Below, in pieces: positions 12,209 through 60,301 of a stretch of DNA of 64,000 bases. The notes under the pieces were generated by a model. That model searched no databases, was not told the origin of the DNA, and was given only the letters and a program-made list of their open reading frames with translations. Each line of letters starts with the position of its first letter. Position 1 is the first letter of the stretch. The stretch lies in contig NZ_JAJBZM010000003.1 in the NCBI RefSeq assembly GCF_020567375.1, positions 387,333 to 451,332 of the forward strand. Reading direction: 5' to 3'. This DNA comes from Janibacter melonis. GTDB taxonomy: Bacteria; Actinomycetota; Actinomycetes; Actinomycetales; Dermatophilaceae. The position numbers and the translations under genes are program-made.

Positions 12209-13096
12209 ATGACCCAGCGCCGGCTCGGCGTGCTCGCCCTCGTCGTCATGCTCCTCGCCGACGCCGTGCTCCTCGCCTGGGTCTTCGGGCTGCTGCCCGG
12301 CAGCGGGGCGGACGCGGCGGTGCCCGAGCCCGCGGCTGCGCCGACCGCGACGTCGGCCTCGCCCTCTGCCTCGCCGAGCGCGACCTCGAAGCCCGCGGCC
12401 CCGGCGGCGCGGTACGTCGCGACCTCCGTCGGCGACACCCTGTGGCGGGCCTCGGTCGCCCGGTGCACCGGTGACGCGGCGGTCGTCGAGCGCTCGCAGG
12501 ACGGCGGCGCGAGCTGGGAGCGCACCCGCTACGACGGGCAGGTCGTCTACCGCCTGCGCCTCACCGAGCCCTCGGTGGGCTTCGCCGTCGGTGCCGACCG
12601 CGGGTGCCCCGAGACGGTCGTCAAGAGCACCGGCGACGGCGGTCAGACCTGGCAGGAGACGTCGGCGGGCCAGACCTGGGCCCCTCTGCGTGACGGGAAT
12701 GTCCTCGTCCCCGGTGGCGAGGAGGTCGACGCGTGCGGGTCGGCGCGGGCCGTCGGACTCGCGCCCGTCGACGAGACGAGCGCGTGGGCGGCCTGCTCGG
12801 ACGGCACCCTGCGGCGCACCACCGACACCGGGGCCAGCTGGGAGGGCGTCGGCCGGGCGAAGGGGGTGACCTCGCTCGCCGTGAGCGGCGAGCGGCTCCT
12901 CGTGGGCTCGGTCGTCACCGGGTGCGACGGGCTCTCCGTGGCGTCCGGCACCACCTCGCAGGCCGACCTCGAGGACGCGACGTGCGTCTCGGGCGCCCGC
13001 ACCGCCGCCGTCGTCCTGGGCGAGCAGGGTGGGTGGCTCGTCGGCACGAGCTCGTGGAGCAGCGCCGACCTCTCCTCGTGGGAGCCGGTCGCCTAG
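12209..13096 (+). CDS. Secreted or membrane-anchored Asp-box (BNR-like) repeat protein
   Basis: 295 aa from ATG 12209 (GGAGG 12198-12202). An N-terminal membrane segment (about 8-30) is followed by an Ala/Pro/Ser/Thr linker (about 35-65) and an extracellular domain with Asp-box motifs: SQDGGASWERT, STGDGGQTWQET and TTDTGASWEGV. Such motifs mark beta-propeller folds (sialidase, Vps10, YCF48-like), but sialidase catalytic residues are not evident, so no enzyme activity is proposed. The stop codon (13094-13096) overlaps the stop codon of the convergent rskA by 2 bp. The frame is open far upstream, but that part is antisense to mdh. Confidence 0.75.
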   Translation: MTQRRLGVLALVVMLLADAVLLAWVFGLLPGSGADAAVPEPAAAPTATSASPSASPSATSKPAAPAARYVATSVGDTLWRASVARCTGDAAVVERSQDGGASWERTRYDGQVVYRLRLTEPSVGFAVGADRGCPETVVKSTGDGGQTWQETSAGQTWAPLRDGNVLVPGGEEVDACGSARAVGLAPVDETSAWAACSDGTLRRTTDTGASWEGVGRAKGVTSLAVSGERLLVGSVVTGCDGLSVASGTTSQADLEDATCVSGARTAAVVLGEQGGWLVGTSSWSSADLSSWEPVA

Positions 13097-13866
13097 AGCG
13101 CGACGACGGCGATCGGGTCGCTCGTCGGCTGCTTCGAGCCGCTGCTCGGCTCGATCGTCAGACCGACGCCGGTGGCGCCGGACGCGTCGCCGGTGAGCAG
13201 GACCGGGGCAGAGCCCGACGCGAAGACCGTCGAGGCGTGCATCGTGCCGGAGTCGTCTGCGAGCCAGGCCTGGTAGCGCTTGTCGGCGTCCGTCTCGGGC
13301 AGGTCCGTGGGCACGAGGACTGCGGCGTCCATCGACGCGCTGCGCACGACCTCGACGGTGCCCCCGCCCGTGACCTGCGCCCGGGCGGTCCGCGCGTCGG
13401 GCGCGTCCATGACGAGCTGGGCCATGTCGGTCTGGCTGCTCTGCTCGGTCTGGGTGACCTGCCAGGCGACGGTGCCCCCGACGGCGAGCGCGGCCGCGGC
13501 GGCCAGGACGCTCACGCGGCGGCCCCACCGACGCGTCGTGGTGATCGGCACGACGTCGGCGTGCCGGCCCTGCTGCGGGTCGACGCCCTCGGAGGTGCTC
13601 TCGGCGCCGGCGTGACCGTCCTGGTCTCCGACGAGCGGCGGCAGCTGACGGGTCTGGGTGATGCCGGCGAGGACCGAGGCGCGCATGCTCGGCGGCGGGG
13701 AGACGGCCTCGTCGGAGGCGAGCAGCGGGCCGAGCTCGGCGAAGGAGGCGACCTCTTCGCGGCAGGCCGCGCACTCGCGCATGTGCTCCTCGAAGGCGGA
13801 CCGCTCGGCGTCGTCGAGTGCGTCCAGGGCGTAGGCCCCGGTCAGCGTGTGCAGCTCGGCGTTCAT
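13093..13866 (-). CDS. rskA: Anti-sigma-K factor, RskA family
   Basis: 257 aa. The N-terminal zinc anti-sigma domain has the HxxxCxxC signature in HMRECAACREE (about 28-38); a single helix follows a WGRR stretch (about 115-135), and the C-terminal extracytoplasmic RskA domain ends in the WLADDSGTMHAS...EPSSGS segment. Members of the family hold SigK at the membrane until regulated proteolysis releases it. ATG 13866 overlaps the sigK stop (ATGA), indicating translational coupling. The order oxidoreductase-fasciclin-sigK-rskA makes it the last gene of its operon. Confidence 0.9.
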   Translation of the reverse strand: MNAELHTLTGAYALDALDDAERSAFEEHMRECAACREEVASFAELGPLLASDEAVSPPPSMRASVLAGITQTRQLPPLVGDQDGHAGAESTSEGVDPQQGRHADVVPITTTRRWGRRVSVLAAAAALAVGGTVAWQVTQTEQSSQTDMAQLVMDAPDARTARAQVTGGGTVEVVRSASMDAAVLVPTDLPETDADKRYQAWLADDSGTMHASTVFASGSAPVLLTGDASGATGVGLTIEPSSGSKQPTSDPIAVVAL

Positions 13867-14483
13867 GCGGTCACCCCCAGCGAGTCTCGTAGTCGTATCA
13901 GGCCGTCTCGGATGCGTGTCTTCGCGGTGCCGAGCGGCAGGTCCAGCAGCGCGGCCACCTCGGTGTGCGTGTACCCCCCGAGGTAGGCCAGTGTGACGGC
14001 CTCGCGCTGGACCTCGGTGAGGTCCCCCAGCGCGCGGTGCACCCGGGCCGCCTCGAGGCGGGCCGCGGCGACCTCGGCGGTCGAGTCGTAGGCCGGGCTG
14101 TGCGTCTCGACCTCGTAGCGGTGGTCGCGGTGGTCGGCCGCCTCGCTGGCCCGGACCCGGTCGACGGCGCGGCGGTGGGCGATGGTGAGCATCCACCCGA
14201 GCGCGCTGCCCCGGGCGGGGTCGAAGCGGCTCGCGGTGCGCCAGATGTCGAGGAAGACCTCCTGGGCGACCTCCTCGGACTGCGCCGGGTTGCGCAGGAC
14301 GCGCACGACGAGACCGTAGACCCGTGAGGCCGTCGCGTCGTAGAGCGCGGCGAAGGCTGACTCGTCCCCGGTCGCAGAGCGACGCAGGAGGGCGGCGAGG
14401 TCGGGGACCACAGGTGCGCGGGCGTCGTCGACCGGTGACTCATCATCGCTCGACAACGCCCGCATGCACCCATGATCACTCAT
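13863..14483 (-). CDS. sigK: ECF RNA polymerase sigma factor, SigK type
   Basis: 206 aa. Region 2 (about 40-110) contains the RVYGLVVRVLRNPAQSEEVAQEVFLDIWR helices and region 4 (about 140-198) ends in a helix-turn-helix with GGYTHTEVAALLDLPLGTAKTRIRDG. Pairing with an RskA anti-sigma and a neighbouring fasciclin lipoprotein matches mycobacterial SigK, whose known targets include the MPT70/MPT83 fasciclin antigens. Candidate SigK-type promoters lie at 16786-16813, 15209-15235 and 59303-59329. ATG 14483 is the longest sensible start; ATG 14465 is an alternative. Confidence 0.92.
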   Translation of the reverse strand: MSDHGCMRALSSDDESPVDDARAPVVPDLAALLRRSATGDESAFAALYDATASRVYGLVVRVLRNPAQSEEVAQEVFLDIWRTASRFDPARGSALGWMLTIAHRRAVDRVRASEAADHRDHRYEVETHSPAYDSTAEVAAARLEAARVHRALGDLTEVQREAVTLAYLGGYTHTEVAALLDLPLGTAKTRIRDGLIRLRDSLGVTA

Positions 14484-14505: not shown

Positions 14506-15168
14506 TTACTTCTTCATCTCGGGCATGAGGACGCCGTCGATGATGTAGACGGTGGCGTTGGAGGTCTGGACGTTGCCGCAGACGACCTTCGCGTCGCCGA
14601 CGGTGAAGTCCTCGCCGGAGCCCTCGACGGTGATCTCGTCACCGGCGAGCGTCTTGTGCGTGCCCGCGAGGTCCTCGGGCGTGAGCTTGCCCTTGACGAC
14701 GTGGTGCGTGAGGACGGTGGTGAGCAGACCCTTCGGGTCGGCCATCGCCGAGTCGAGAGTCTTCTTGTCGACCGCGGAGAAGGCGTCGTTCGTCGGGGCG
14801 AAGACGGTGATGTCCTCGGAGCTGTTGAGCGTGTCGACCAGGCCGGCCTCCTTGACCGCGCCGACGAGCGTCTTGAGGTCGGGGTTGTTGCTCGCGGCGG
14901 TCGCGACCGGGTCCTTGGCCATGCCGGCGAAGGAGCCCGCGCCGTCGGCCGGGACCGACTCGCAGCCGGGGCCGAAGGGCTCGTCGCCCATGGCCATGTC
15001 GTCGCTCGAGCTGGAGCTGGACTCCATGGGGGAGGAGGACGAGGAGCTCATGCCGGAGCTGGTGCTCGAGCCGCTGGCGGTGTCGGTGTCGCCGCCACCG
15101 CACGCGGTGAGCGCGAGGGGGAGGGCGGCGAGGGTGGCCAGGGCGGTGGTGCGGGTGATGCGTCGCAT
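14506..15168 (-). CDS. Fasciclin (FAS1) domain lipoprotein
   Basis: 220 aa. Lipoprotein signal with lipobox LTAC (cysteine about residue 23), then a Ser/Met-rich linker (about 30-62), then one FAS1 domain (about 85-218) with the conserved ITVFAPTNDAF and HHVVKGKL blocks. Equivalent to the MPT83/MPT70 family of surface antigens; FAS1 domains mediate adhesion or ligand binding and no enzyme function is known. It lies 22 bp before sigK in the same operon and carries its own SigK-like promoter 40 nt upstream of ATG 15168, so the lipoprotein can be made in excess over the sigma factor. Confidence 0.9.
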   Translation of the reverse strand: MRRITRTTALATLAALPLALTACGGGDTDTASGSSTSSGMSSSSSSPMESSSSSSDDMAMGDEPFGPGCESVPADGAGSFAGMAKDPVATAASNNPDLKTLVGAVKEAGLVDTLNSSEDITVFAPTNDAFSAVDKKTLDSAMADPKGLLTTVLTHHVVKGKLTPEDLAGTHKTLAGDEITVEGSGEDFTVGDAKVVCGNVQTSNATVYIIDGVLMPEMKK

Positions 15169-15208: not shown

Positions 15209-15235
15209 CTTCGTCGCTGCGCGCAGATCGGATGG
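15209..15235 (-). promoter_or_regulatory. Candidate SigK promoter of the fasciclin gene
   Basis: Minus-strand CCATCC (15235-15230), 15 bp, then ACGAAG (15214-15209). The hexamers resemble the -35 CCATCC / -10 CCGAAT type I recall for mycobacterial SigK promoters. A near-identical CCCATCCGA context occurs before the CHRD-like gene at 59244. Confidence 0.55.
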
Positions 15236-15266: not shown

Positions 15267-16778
15267 TCAGGTGACGACGACGGCGATCGTGTGCAGGCCG
15301 GTGGCCCCCTTCGGGAAGGGCGTGGCCCGCTCGGTGGTCTGGGTGTAGCCGGTCTCGTCGGTCGCGCGGACCGAGATGTCGTGACGGCCGGGGGTGGCCC
15401 GCCACGGCAGGTACCACTGACGCCAGTAGTCGATGCCTGCATCGGGACCCAGGGTGGCGCGCTGCCACTCGCCGTCGTCGATCCTCACCTCGACGCGCTC
15501 GATGCCGCGCTGCTGGGCCCAGGCGACACCGCCGATGACGGTGCTCCCGGCCGGGATGGGGTCGAGCGGCTTGGGGGTGTCGATGCGCGACTGCGTGAGC
15601 ACCGGGGCGTCGGTCGCCCAGTCACGGTCGGTCCAGTAGGCGCTCTGGGCGGCGTAGGTCGTCAGGGTCATCTTCGTCAGCCACTTCGTCGCGCCGACGA
15701 ATCCGTAGAGCCCGGGCGTGACGAGGCGCACGGGGAAGCCGTGCTCGCGGGGCAGCGGCGCGCCGTCCATGCCGACGACGACGAGCGCGTCGCGGTCGTC
15801 CAGGAGCGCCTGGACCGGGGTCGAGATCGTCATACCCTCGACGCTCGTGCTGAGCACCTGGTCGGCGCCGGGGCGCACGCCGACGCGCTCGAGCAGGGTG
15901 CGGGTGGGCACCCCGAGCCAGCGGGCGGAGCCGACGTAGCCGCCGCCGACCTCGTTGCTCACGCAGGTCATCGTGATGTCCTTCTCGATCATCGGCAGCT
16001 CGAGCAGCTCGTCGAAGGAGAGGGTGAGGGGCCGCTCGACGTCGCCGTCGATGACGAGCTGCCAGTCCTTCGGGTCCACACGCGGCACGGTGAGGGCGGT
16101 GTCGACCCGGTAGAAGGCGTCCCGCGGGGTGACGAAGGGGGAGACCCCCTCGTGCGTGCCCTCGATGCCGGCGGGGAGCGGCCGGGGAGAGGTCGTGGGC
16201 TCCGGCAGCGCGATCTCGGGGACGCGGCGGCGAGCGGTGATGACCTGACCGCCGCCGCCGAGCGCCGCGGCGGCGACGCCCGCGCCACCGGCGGCGAGGA
16301 CCCCGCGGCGGGCTGGCTGGCCGGGGGCCGCCCAGGTGTCGGCCTCACGACGGCCGGCGAGCCAGGCGAGGGTGGCGCAGCCGAGGACTCCGGCGACGAC
16401 CGACGGGAGCACGGCGGCGGGGCCGGCAGCGGGCCGGCTGAGCGCAGCAGCACCCGCGAGCGCGGTGAGCGCGGCGAGCAGCCCGAGGCCCAGCACCGGC
16501 CGGGTGCGGTGCAGGACGCCGGCCAGGGCGGCCAGCAGCAGGGTGACGACGGCGACGGATCCGACGAGGATCGGTTTGTCGGCGGTGCCGAAGGTCGAGA
16601 CCGCCCACTCCTTGACGGGGGTGGGGGTGGCGTCGATGACCGTGGACCCGACGGCGAGGACCGGCGAGGCGGCGGGGTCGACGAGCGCGGCGACGAGGTG
16701 CGCCGCGCCGGTGCCCAGGGCGGCTGCGAGCAGCCCGTGCAGGGCGCCCACCCGGTCGGGGGTCTGAGATCTCTCCAT
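15267..16778 (-). CDS. Membrane-anchored molybdopterin-dependent oxidoreductase (sulfite oxidase family)
   Basis: 503 aa. About four hydrophobic helices (10-130) precede a twin-arginine-like ARRGVLAAGGAG segment, a molybdopterin-binding domain (about 215-400) and a C-terminal Mo-co dimerisation domain (to 503). The molybdenum-ligating cysteine is in ITMTCVSNEVGG. Electron acceptor and substrate are unknown. ATG 16778 is chosen over GTG 16826 because a CCATCC-N16-CCGAAC promoter ends exactly 7 nt before it, which would put GTG 16826 upstream of transcription. GTG 16826 overlaps the idh stop (GTGA), so a coupled longer form (+16 aa) remains possible. First gene of the sigK-rskA operon. Confidence 0.88.
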   Translation of the reverse strand: MERSQTPDRVGALHGLLAAALGTGAAHLVAALVDPAASPVLAVGSTVIDATPTPVKEWAVSTFGTADKPILVGSVAVVTLLLAALAGVLHRTRPVLGLGLLAALTALAGAAALSRPAAGPAAVLPSVVAGVLGCATLAWLAGRREADTWAAPGQPARRGVLAAGGAGVAAAALGGGGQVITARRRVPEIALPEPTTSPRPLPAGIEGTHEGVSPFVTPRDAFYRVDTALTVPRVDPKDWQLVIDGDVERPLTLSFDELLELPMIEKDITMTCVSNEVGGGYVGSARWLGVPTRTLLERVGVRPGADQVLSTSVEGMTISTPVQALLDDRDALVVVGMDGAPLPREHGFPVRLVTPGLYGFVGATKWLTKMTLTTYAAQSAYWTDRDWATDAPVLTQSRIDTPKPLDPIPAGSTVIGGVAWAQQRGIERVEVRIDDGEWQRATLGPDAGIDYWRQWYLPWRATPGRHDISVRATDETGYTQTTERATPFPKGATGLHTIAVVVT

Positions 16779-16785
16779 GGTGGAG

Positions 16786-16813
16786 GTTCGGCGCAGACCC
16801 GCCGTCCGGATGG
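16786..16813 (-). promoter_or_regulatory. Candidate SigK promoter of the molybdopterin oxidoreductase operon
   Basis: Minus-strand CCATCC (16813-16808), 16 bp, then CCGAAC (16791-16786), 7 nt before ATG 16778. This is the best match in the window to the SigK-type pattern, and suggests a leaderless, autoregulated operon that includes sigK and rskA. Confidence 0.6.
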
Positions 16814-57638: not shown

Positions 57639-58445
57639 TCAGCGCGAGCCGACGAGCTTCGCGTAGACGACGACGTTGTCGACGTGATGGCCGGTCTCGC
57701 CGTCGAAGAACCCGCCGCACGTGATGAGCCGCAGCGCGGCGTGGTCGACGGTGCCGTAGACGTCGTCGGTCGGGAAGTCGGACTTCGGGTACTGCCCGAC
57801 GTCCTCGACGGAGAAGATCGCCGTCGTGCCGTCCTTGCGGTCGACCTCGATCTTCTGGCCCTTCTTCATCGCCCCGAGGTCGAAGAAGACCGCGGGCTTC
57901 TTGTCCCACGTGACGTGGGCGGCGAGGACCGACGGGCCGAGCTCGCCCGGGGTGGGGCTGCCCGTGTACCACCCGGTGCTCGTGCCGTCCTGCGGCACCT
58001 CCATCCGCTTGTCCTGCTGCAGACCGAGCTCGCCGATCGTGCTCGAGACGTCGAGGGAGGGGATGCGGACCTTCGTCGGCTGGGAGCGCGCGAGGGTCTC
58101 GCCGCTGGGGCGGACGTAGCGTGCGGCCGGCTTCTGCGACGCGGTGGGGCTCGAGGAGCCCGACGAGCTGGACCCGCCCATGCCCATGTGACCGGCGTGG
58201 GGGTCAGCGGAGCCCGCGGAGCCGGACGAGGACCCAGAGGTGCTCGAGCCGCTCGGCTCGGCCGCCGAGGACGACATCCCATGACCCTCGTGCGACCCGC
58301 CGGACGAGGCGACCCAGGCGGGGTCACGCGTCTCCTGCTGGCTCAGACCGTAGGCGACCAGCCCCCCGCCACCGAGGGTGAGGGCCGCGACCGCAGCCGC
58401 CACGCCGGTGGCGCGGCGACTGCGGTCAGTGGCGTGCTTCGACAC
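57639..58445 (-). CDS. Class F-like sortase with His/Met-rich linker
   Basis: 268 aa from GTG 58445. One N-terminal membrane helix (about 13-36), a Ser/Gly/His/Met-rich linker (about 49-100, with SHEGHGM and DPHAGHMGMGG), then the sortase barrel (about 105-268). H177 (LAAHVTW) and C243 (LITCGG) are in place. The usual catalytic Arg about 12-13 residues after the cysteine is not seen (GETGHHVDNVVV instead). Sortases attach or cross-link surface proteins. It lies 7 bp after the secreted protein gene at 58453, its most obvious substrate candidate, but neither upstream protein shows a clear LPxTG motif. Confidence 0.85.
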   Translation of the reverse strand: MSKHATDRSRRATGVAAAVAALTLGGGGLVAYGLSQQETRDPAWVASSGGSHEGHGMSSSAAEPSGSSTSGSSSGSAGSADPHAGHMGMGGSSSSGSSSPTASQKPAARYVRPSGETLARSQPTKVRIPSLDVSSTIGELGLQQDKRMEVPQDGTSTGWYTGSPTPGELGPSVLAAHVTWDKKPAVFFDLGAMKKGQKIEVDRKDGTTAIFSVEDVGQYPKSDFPTDDVYGTVDHAALRLITCGGFFDGETGHHVDNVVVYAKLVGSR

Positions 58446-58452
58446 GGCTCGC

Positions 58453-59244
58453 TCAGCGCTCCGTGGCCGTACGACGACGCGTGGCGACGATCGCGCCCGC
58501 GGCGAGGATGGCGAAGGCACCGGCGCCGAGCGCCCCCTTCGACTCCACGCCGTCGGTCGTGCCGCCACCGGTGTCGACGCCACCGGTCGGGGCCGCGCCG
58601 ACCGCAGCGCCGCTCACGGTGCCGCAGGTGGCCGGGTTCGTGGCCTCCTCCGGGATGCCGTCGACGCCGAGCGACTTGGCGAAGCTGGACTCGCCGAGCG
58701 CCTCCATGTCGTACTTGTCGTTGCCGTTCGCGTCCAGGCCGTGCTGGACGACGTGGAGGTTCTTCAGCTTCGCGCCGGCACCGGCCGGCAGCGCGATGGT
58801 GCGCTCGTAGCTGAGGTTGCCGTCCGCGTCGGCGACCGGCATGCGGTCGACGGCCAGGCCGCTCTTGGCGCTCGTGTCGCCCTTCGTCGTCAGCGAGATC
58901 ATGACGTCGCCATAGCGGGGCAGACCCTCCTCGGTGTTGACCTGGCCGTCGCCGTCCGCGTCGTCCGCGGCGGTGGGGCAGGTGAAGTCCTTGTTGGCGT
59001 CGAAGGACCCGTGGAAGTGCTGGGCGTGGGGCGAGTTGGGGGTGAAGCCGCTGCCCTGGATCTTGATCGTCATCTCGTCACCGTCGACGGTGACCTCGGC
59101 GGTCGAGGACGACCCGCTGTTGTTGCCCATCGTGTCGAGCAGCTTCATCGAGTAGCGGTCCTCGGCGCTCGCGCCCGTGGCGCTGGCGAGCAGCATCGCA
59201 GCCGCTGCCGGGACGACCATGCTGGCCTTGGTCAGGGTACGCAT
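58453..59244 (-). CDS. Secreted CHRD-like protein with C-terminal membrane anchor, paralogue 1
   Basis: 263 aa. Signal peptide (cut near ASA-ED, about 27), a beta-rich CHRD-like domain with SPHAQHFHGSFDANKDFTCP, a calcium-loop-like DADGDGQVNTEEG, NLHVVQHGLDANGNDKYD (second such loop), a TCGT region, a GGVDTGGG linker and a C-terminal helix followed by RRR. The tail resembles a cell-wall sorting signal without a clear LPxTG. About two thirds identical to its neighbour at 59397-60188. A CCATCC-N15-CCGAAC promoter lies 58 nt upstream. Function unknown; CHRD domains occur in extracellular proteins. Confidence 0.82.
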   Translation of the reverse strand: MRTLTKASMVVPAAAAMLLASATGASAEDRYSMKLLDTMGNNSGSSSTAEVTVDGDEMTIKIQGSGFTPNSPHAQHFHGSFDANKDFTCPTAADDADGDGQVNTEEGLPRYGDVMISLTTKGDTSAKSGLAVDRMPVADADGNLSYERTIALPAGAGAKLKNLHVVQHGLDANGNDKYDMEALGESSFAKSLGVDGIPEEATNPATCGTVSGAAVGAAPTGGVDTGGGTTDGVESKGALGAGAFAILAAGAIVATRRRTATER

Positions 59245-59302
59245 TCGTGACTCCCTTGTCGTGGTGTCGACCGGCCCCTGGGGTCGGTCGGTCGTGACAG
59301 GG

Positions 59303-59329
59303 GTTCGGAGTCCTCACGAGGTCGGATGG
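59303..59329 (-). promoter_or_regulatory. Candidate SigK promoter of CHRD-like gene 1
   Basis: Minus-strand CCATCC (59329-59324), 15 bp, then CCGAAC (59308-59303). Both hexamers are identical to those before the molybdopterin oxidoreductase at 16786-16813. The leader to ATG 59244 is about 50 nt. Confidence 0.55.
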
Positions 59330-59396
59330 GACCGATTGCATCTTTTCTTGAGCACCCCGCAGCAACGGGACGCGAAGGGGGCCCGCCCGGGCCTGC

Positions 59397-60188
59397 TCAG
59401 CCCTCCCCGGTCAGGCGCCGGCGGCAGGCGACGAGCGCGCCGGCCGCGAGGATCGCGACGGCGCCCCCGCCCAGGGCCCCCTTCGCCTCGAGCCCGTCGC
59501 TCGACCCGCCGCCGGTGTCGACGCCACCGCTCGGGGCCGCCCCGACCGCGGCGCCGCTCACGGTGCCGCACGTCGCGGGGTTCGTCGCCTCCTCGGGGAT
59601 GCCCTTCACCCCGGCCGAGCGCGCGAAGGTCGACTCGCCGAGGGCCCCGAGGTCGTACTTCTCGTTGCCGTTGGCATCGAGGCCGTGCTGGACGACGTGG
59701 AGGTTGCGCAGCTTGCGACCCGAGCCGTTCGGCAGGGGGAAGGTGCGCTCGTAGGTGAGACGCCCCTTCGCGTCCGCGACGGGCATCCGGTCGACGGCCA
59801 GACCGCTCTTCGGGCTCGTGTCGCCCTCCGTCGTCAGCGAGATGATGATGTCGCCGTACGTCGGCAGGCCCTCCTCCGTCGTCACCTGGCCGTCGCCGTC
59901 CGCGTCGGCCGCGGGCGTCGGGCAGGTGAAGTCCTTGTTGACGTCGAAGGACCCGTGGAAGTGCTGGGCGTGCGGCGCGTTCGGCACGAAGCCCTTGCCG
60001 GTGATCTTCAGGGTCATCTCGTCGTCGTGGATGTCCATGATCACGGTGGCCGTGGCGCCGCTGCCGTTGCCCATCGTGTCGCGGAGCGTCATCGTGTAGC
60101 GGTCCTCGGCGCTCGCGCTCGTCCCCCCGAGGACGAGCAGCGTGGCCGCGGTCGGCACCGCGAGGGCAGCAGAGACTGCAGGACGCAT
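59397..60188 (-). CDS. Secreted CHRD-like protein with C-terminal membrane anchor, paralogue 2
   Basis: 263 aa, start ATG 60188 with GAAGGAGT upstream. Domain order is the same as the neighbouring paralogue: signal peptide (to about 27), NAPHAQHFHGSFDVNKDFTCP, DADGDGQVTTEEG, NLHVVQHGLDANGNEKYD, CGTVSGAAVGAAPSGGVDTGGG and a C-terminal helix then RRR. The pair looks like a tandem duplication; the core is most conserved, the signal peptide and tail less. A weaker promoter-like CCCACC-N15-TCGAAG (60229-60203) precedes it. Function unknown. Confidence 0.82.
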   Translation of the reverse strand: MRPAVSAALAVPTAATLLVLGGTSASAEDRYTMTLRDTMGNGSGATATVIMDIHDDEMTLKITGKGFVPNAPHAQHFHGSFDVNKDFTCPTPAADADGDGQVTTEEGLPTYGDIIISLTTEGDTSPKSGLAVDRMPVADAKGRLTYERTFPLPNGSGRKLRNLHVVQHGLDANGNEKYDLGALGESTFARSAGVKGIPEEATNPATCGTVSGAAVGAAPSGGVDTGGGSSDGLEAKGALGGGAVAILAAGALVACRRRLTGEG

Positions 60189-60301
60189 CGTGACTCCTTC
60201 GTCTTCGACGGCCGTCTCCCCCCGGTGGGTCCGGCCGTCGCGATGTCGTCGCACCCTACGCGCGCGAAGGGGGGCCTCGTGGGCCGTCGACGAAAGTCGG
60301 G

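Follow-up and report, generated by a model that had tools for sequence, protein, structure and literature searches.

A predicted SigK promoter before a sortase-linked CHRD/SOD-fold surface protein gene in Janibacter melonis

Sequence comparison indicates that in Janibacter melonis the sigma factor SigK is very probably linked to a sortase. Within the 64,000-nucleotide stretch of DNA analyzed here (the window), it is highly likely that the site CCATCC-N15-CCGAAC at 59303..59329 (minus strand) is a SigK-dependent promoter, and that it serves a three-unit SigK regulon that includes a surface protein probably anchored by a sortase. The site lies about 59 nt 5' of the ATG of a gene for a CHRD-like protein (58453-59244), and it was kept before homologues in many related genomes, where the same gene often lies beside sigK.

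Predicted SigK sites in the window

The window encodes an ECF sigma factor, sigK (13863..14483, minus strand), with a match to NF007228 of 272.8 bits (cut-off 226); it is the single SigK over this cut-off in the genome. An adjacent RskA-type anti-sigma factor, by which membership of SigK is judged, is encoded by rskA (13096..13866, minus strand), in which PF10099 (RskA_C) and PF22618 (RskA_N) are both over cut-off. The operon begins with a FAS1 (fasciclin) lipoprotein gene (14506..15168, minus strand; PF02469, 107.9 bits), and a molybdopterin oxidoreductase of the sulfite-oxidase type is encoded at 15267..16778 (minus strand; PF00174, 146 bits). The two conserved cysteines of region 4 are absent from this SigK, in which the sole cysteine is C6, and are kept in Micromonosporaceae SigK. 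Loss of cysteines is known in some functional SigK, for example in Nocardia (PMC7509140).

We built a promoter matrix from 22 distinct sites upstream of FAS1, the leading gene of the operon, in relatives within the family; no site from the window genome was included, and the threshold of 10 bits was our choice. Of 30 sigK loci in the family, 28 have such a site before FAS1. Across both strands of the window exactly three sites reach the threshold, all on the minus strand: CCATCC-N15-ACGAAG before FAS1-sigK-rskA (15209..15235, 15.2 bits), CCATCC-N16-CCGAAC before the oxidoreductase (16786..16813, 18.0 bits), and the site at 59303..59329, which has the highest score (25.6 bits). By this score the last matches sigK-operon promoters in its -35 and -10 elements and their spacing, the features expected of a SigK regulon promoter. 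A preliminary description of this DNA had reported CCATCC-N15-CCGAAC at 59329-59303, and it is present on the minus strand as described. The hexamers said to be shared with the oxidoreductase site are an identical pair, with a spacer there of 16 rather than 15, and the context said to be shared with the FAS1 site (15235-15209, minus strand, spacer 15) was recovered as CCCATCCGA in both. At window positions 16778-16791, the oxidoreductase -10 element ends 7 nt 5' of the start codon, which may make this transcript leaderless. Separately, a hairpin conserved in the 5' leader was considered and is unsupported, with just four pairs and -1.5 kcal/mol.

The exact hexamer pair with a spacer of 14-17 occurs twice in the window versus 0.05 times in shuffles. 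A pattern search of the 3.49-Mb, 73% GC genome found the bare pattern 9 times, where the expected number ranges from about 2.7 by scaled-up window shuffles to 7.9 by base composition, and the looser CCATCC-N15/16-nCGAA 11 times versus 10.8 expected from composition. The preliminary description had named a chance frequency genome-wide as evidence against its reading, and for the bare pattern this is what was found. With 9-11 copies genome-wide, near chance, the bare motif therefore proves little alone, and conservation and position carry the case.

Conservation of the site and linkage to sigK

Comparison in relatives, as proposed in the preliminary description, bears the reading out, both in the sites themselves and, as set out below, in the placing of sigK-rskA beside the pair of CHRD-like gene and sortase. 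Sites of at least 10 bits precede 46 of the 51 family CHRD-like homologues, versus 0.9% of shuffled windows and 1 of 51 on the opposite strand; these genomes are related, so that such counts are not independent, and Fisher values were computed without phylogeny. At 16 bits, 37 of the 51 genes are retained versus 0.2% of shuffles. A site was also found before 18 of 21 CHRD-like genes in a second batch, and the density of sites of at least 10 bits is 150 times higher upstream of regulon genes than in the rest of the same loci. The same matrix scan found no SigK-type site upstream of the sortase, MerR, and acyl-CoA dehydrogenase genes in relatives. The site at 59303..59329 itself is kept in orthologues from 12 other genomes, in which the spacers have diverged. 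Could the hexamers have arisen from base composition in a 73% GC genome, leaving the gene outside SigK control? The genome-wide counts of the bare pattern match that expectation, but position, spacing, and hexamers are kept before homologues across genera while the spacers have diverged, and the gene is recurrently linked to sigK, making such an origin very unlikely.

A site is lacking before 5 of the 51 family homologues and before many outside the family; in some of these an upstream kinase gene carries it. In Paractinoplanes and Asanoa (L191:4457-5972 and L205:4296-5811), a gene for a Ser/Thr protein kinase stands before the CHRD-like gene and has a SigK-type site.

The CHRD-like gene and a class F sortase gene form a near-constant pair across loci. 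In 24 family loci, which were fetched because the genes had already been seen close together, sigK-rskA adjoins this pair in three gene orders (CHRD-sortase-sigK-rskA, sigK-rskA-CHRD-sortase, and convergent). Among 80 loci that came from a species-wide scan and were selected without regard to SigK, 25 have SigK within the fetched flanks, and eight of the 80 hold a six-gene cluster of CHRD, sortase, sigK, rskA, FAS1, and oxidoreductase genes. These clusters occur in Micromonospora, Actinoplanes, Asanoa, Paractinoplanes, and Brachybacterium, and SigK-type sites precede most of their separate units. The neighboring sigma factors belong to NF007228: seven of ten are over the cut-off, and the other three score 216-224 bits with trimmed sequence. 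Mapping the sortase-linked label onto a SigK tree requires 12 changes, of which at least six are forced on well-supported branches; the linkage has therefore been gained or lost repeatedly.

Among genomes of the family, SigK and a CHRD-like homologue occur together in 96; 6 have the homologue alone, 34 SigK alone, and 52 neither, where four genomes with only a distant ECF were counted as without SigK. In 26 named genomes the motif and an over-cut-off SigK go together, with Janibacter anophelis the one exception. Blastococcus and Modestobacter have the CHRD-sortase pair, no SigK over the cut-off, and no motif.

The main caveat is the motif in two genomes with no recognizable SigK, J. anophelis (G056) and the single-contig genome G186. 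J. anophelis lacks the sigK operon at its usual location. An assembly gap was considered and rejected: the flanks are present on two contigs, the operon is beside neither, and the next 5.6 kb of one contig is not the operon. Loss or relocation of sigK is likelier than such a gap, and a loss may be recent. A second ECF sigma factor, 34% identical to SigK, is encoded in the window genome beside another class-F-like sortase (G000:C2:82961-83488, L171), and similar ECF-sortase pairs were found in J. anophelis, G186, and genome G002.

These genomes raise the question of whether the promoter is real and used by another ECF sigma factor, alone or with SigK. In both J. anophelis and G186 the motif persists in the absence of SigK, alongside an ECF-sortase pair, which the window genome also has (at G000:C2:82961). 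ECF operons are commonly autoregulated, but the ECF-sortase loci scanned in J. anophelis and G186 gave no SigK-type score above 0.7, and the recurrent neighbor of the CHRD-sortase pair is SigK, not the second ECF. We consider use by another ECF improbable and favor SigK as the factor that would act at this site.

The predicted surface protein, the class F sortase, and the second paralogue

The product of the gene at 58453..59244 (minus strand), CHRD/SOD-fold surface protein 1, has a signal peptide and a GVDTG sorting tail (NF058571, 31.8 bits, cut-off 29) that occurs in 38 of 40 homologues. No direct match to the Pfam CHRD domain (PF07452) was obtained for the window proteins; 23 of 40 family homologues have one (best 2.5e-9). 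The CHRD domain is related to SOD. The AlphaFold core of surface protein 1 has a pLDDT > 90, and its best 50 Foldseek matches to solved structures are all Cu,Zn SOD. Residues H73, H76, and H78 (HxxHxH) align with the copper-binding stretch of SOD and are invariant across homologues, as are H168 and the cysteines C89 and C207. The full set of copper and zinc ligands of a Cu,Zn superoxide dismutase was not found: those four are the only invariant histidines, and the bridging and zinc ligands appear to be missing because none lies between HxxHxH and H168. We set aside superoxide dismutase as the identity of the protein and call it SOD-fold, since the fold and HxxHxH match but the other metal ligands are not seen. 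The protein is probably metal-binding.

The class F sortase gene (57639..58445, minus strand; NF033748, 187.3 bits, cut-off 166) starts 7 nt after the CHRD-like gene on the same strand and is presumed to share its transcript. Alternatively, SigK might transcribe the CHRD-like gene only, with the sortase under its own control and the linkage reflecting the pairing of substrate and enzyme. The several hundred nucleotides that separate the two genes in some relatives would suit such an arrangement, but the 7-nt gap in the window and the lack of any SigK-type site upstream of the sortase in 48 loci argue against it, and we regard it as unlikely compared with a shared SigK-dependent transcript.

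A tandem paralogue, 73% identical, lies at 59397..60188 (minus strand; CHRD/SOD-fold surface protein 2, NF058571 29.7 bits). The preliminary description had placed a weaker site, CCCACC-N15-TCGAAG, before it. This sequence is present at 60203..60229 (minus strand), but it scores -4.6 in the matrix and stops 14 nt short of the ATG, abutting the ribosome-binding site, and was rejected as a SigK site; the paralogue has no credible one. Between the MerR gene and paralogue 2, at approximately 60249..60283 (minus strand), is a sequence, CCCACGAGGCCCCCCTTCGCGCGCGTAGG, that is likely a decayed ancestral promoter. In an alignment read by eye it resembles CCCATCCGGTCCCCCCTTCGCTCCGAACG, the intact site at the corresponding position in Janibacter, but has both hexamers broken. 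In Janibacter relatives the CHRD-like gene is single, and its intact site immediately follows the MerR gene. It seems that after a tandem duplication only paralogue 1 was left with the good promoter, the SigK promoter of paralogue 2 having probably been lost.

The proposed regulon and known systems

From the computed sites, their conservation, gene neighborhoods, and protein families, we infer the following course. RskA would release SigK, and RNA polymerase with SigK would bind and transcribe the oxidoreductase as one unit, FAS1-sigK-rskA as a second (autoregulation), and the CHRD/SOD-fold protein, cotranscribed with its class F sortase, as a third. The CHRD/SOD-fold protein would then be exported, and the sortase would cut it at the GVDTG tail and fix it to the cell surface, where it might serve envelope redox or copper chemistry. 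The surface program advanced in the preliminary description survives in its oxidoreductase, FAS1 lipoprotein, first CHRD-like protein, and sortase, each of which the comparison supports as a candidate member; the second CHRD-like protein drops out.

Other SigK-type sites were identified outside these units. In 19 sortase-linked sigK genes from the genus of Ornithinimicrobium sediminis and its kin (L076-L090, L108-L111, L128), CAATCC-N16-ACGAA falls within the coding sequence of sigK, about 280 nt upstream of rskA, and reads in frame as CAA TCC ... TAC GAA. Its CAA and GAA, both invariant, are the only ones of 66 conserved degenerate codons with A/T at the end. This site is likely an internal promoter for rskA, which would provide negative feedback. 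No CAATCC variant was found in the window's own genome. A site of 15.7 bits at G000:C1:22034-22008 (L001) in the window genome precedes an alpha/beta hydrolase gene, a possible fourth unit of the regulon.

Like CHRD proteins and Cu,Zn SOD, the surface protein family has a CHRD match (23 of 40 members), the SOD fold, and HxxHxH, and it differs from Cu,Zn SOD in the apparent loss of bridging and zinc ligands. The GVDTG sorting domain model NF058571 describes the tail shared by 38 of 40 homologues; it names the tail only and holds nothing on SigK control. Physiological roles of class F sortases have been called unknown (PMC13251363). In that study of five sortases of Actinoplanes missouriensis, the enzymes are of the same class and unknown proteins, possibly their substrates, are encoded beside srtF1 and srtF4; unlike for the window, no regulator and no sorting motif is given (PMC13251363). 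The preliminary description knew of no SigK-sortase link, and in the literature searched, with subscription papers mostly outside the search, we likewise found none joining SigK or RskA with a sortase, CHRD, or class F sortase.

The closest known system is SigK-RskA of Mycobacterium tuberculosis, with its mpt83-sigK-rskA cassette (PMC7509140). Both systems have the SigK and RskA families, a FAS1 lipoprotein in the sigK operon, and autoregulation via an upstream promoter, which in the window is predicted. SigK orthologues of different species recognize the M. tuberculosis mpt70 promoter, and SigK binding sites have been described as highly conserved among Actinobacteria (PMC7509140). The window SigK departs from this account in missing the two cysteines that it discusses, and the described M. 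tuberculosis regulon, unlike the window, has no sortase and no CHRD/SOD-fold protein (PMC7509140). In the tuberculosis complex, SigK controls antigens that are strongly expressed, and its signal is described as unknown (PMC7509140). A link between SigK, a sortase, and its likely substrate would point to envelope redox or metal stress as what SigK responds to, and a conserved SigK-controlled class F sortase with a likely substrate would give both the SigK signal and the class F role a simple test in harmless soil actinobacteria. More speculatively, and with the odds against it, SigK-RskA may in most actinobacteria be the switch of an envelope redox or copper program (molybdopterin oxidoreductase, FAS1 lipoprotein, and SOD-fold metal protein with a dedicated class F sortase), of which the mycobacterial MPT70/MPT83 regulon would be a reduced branch.
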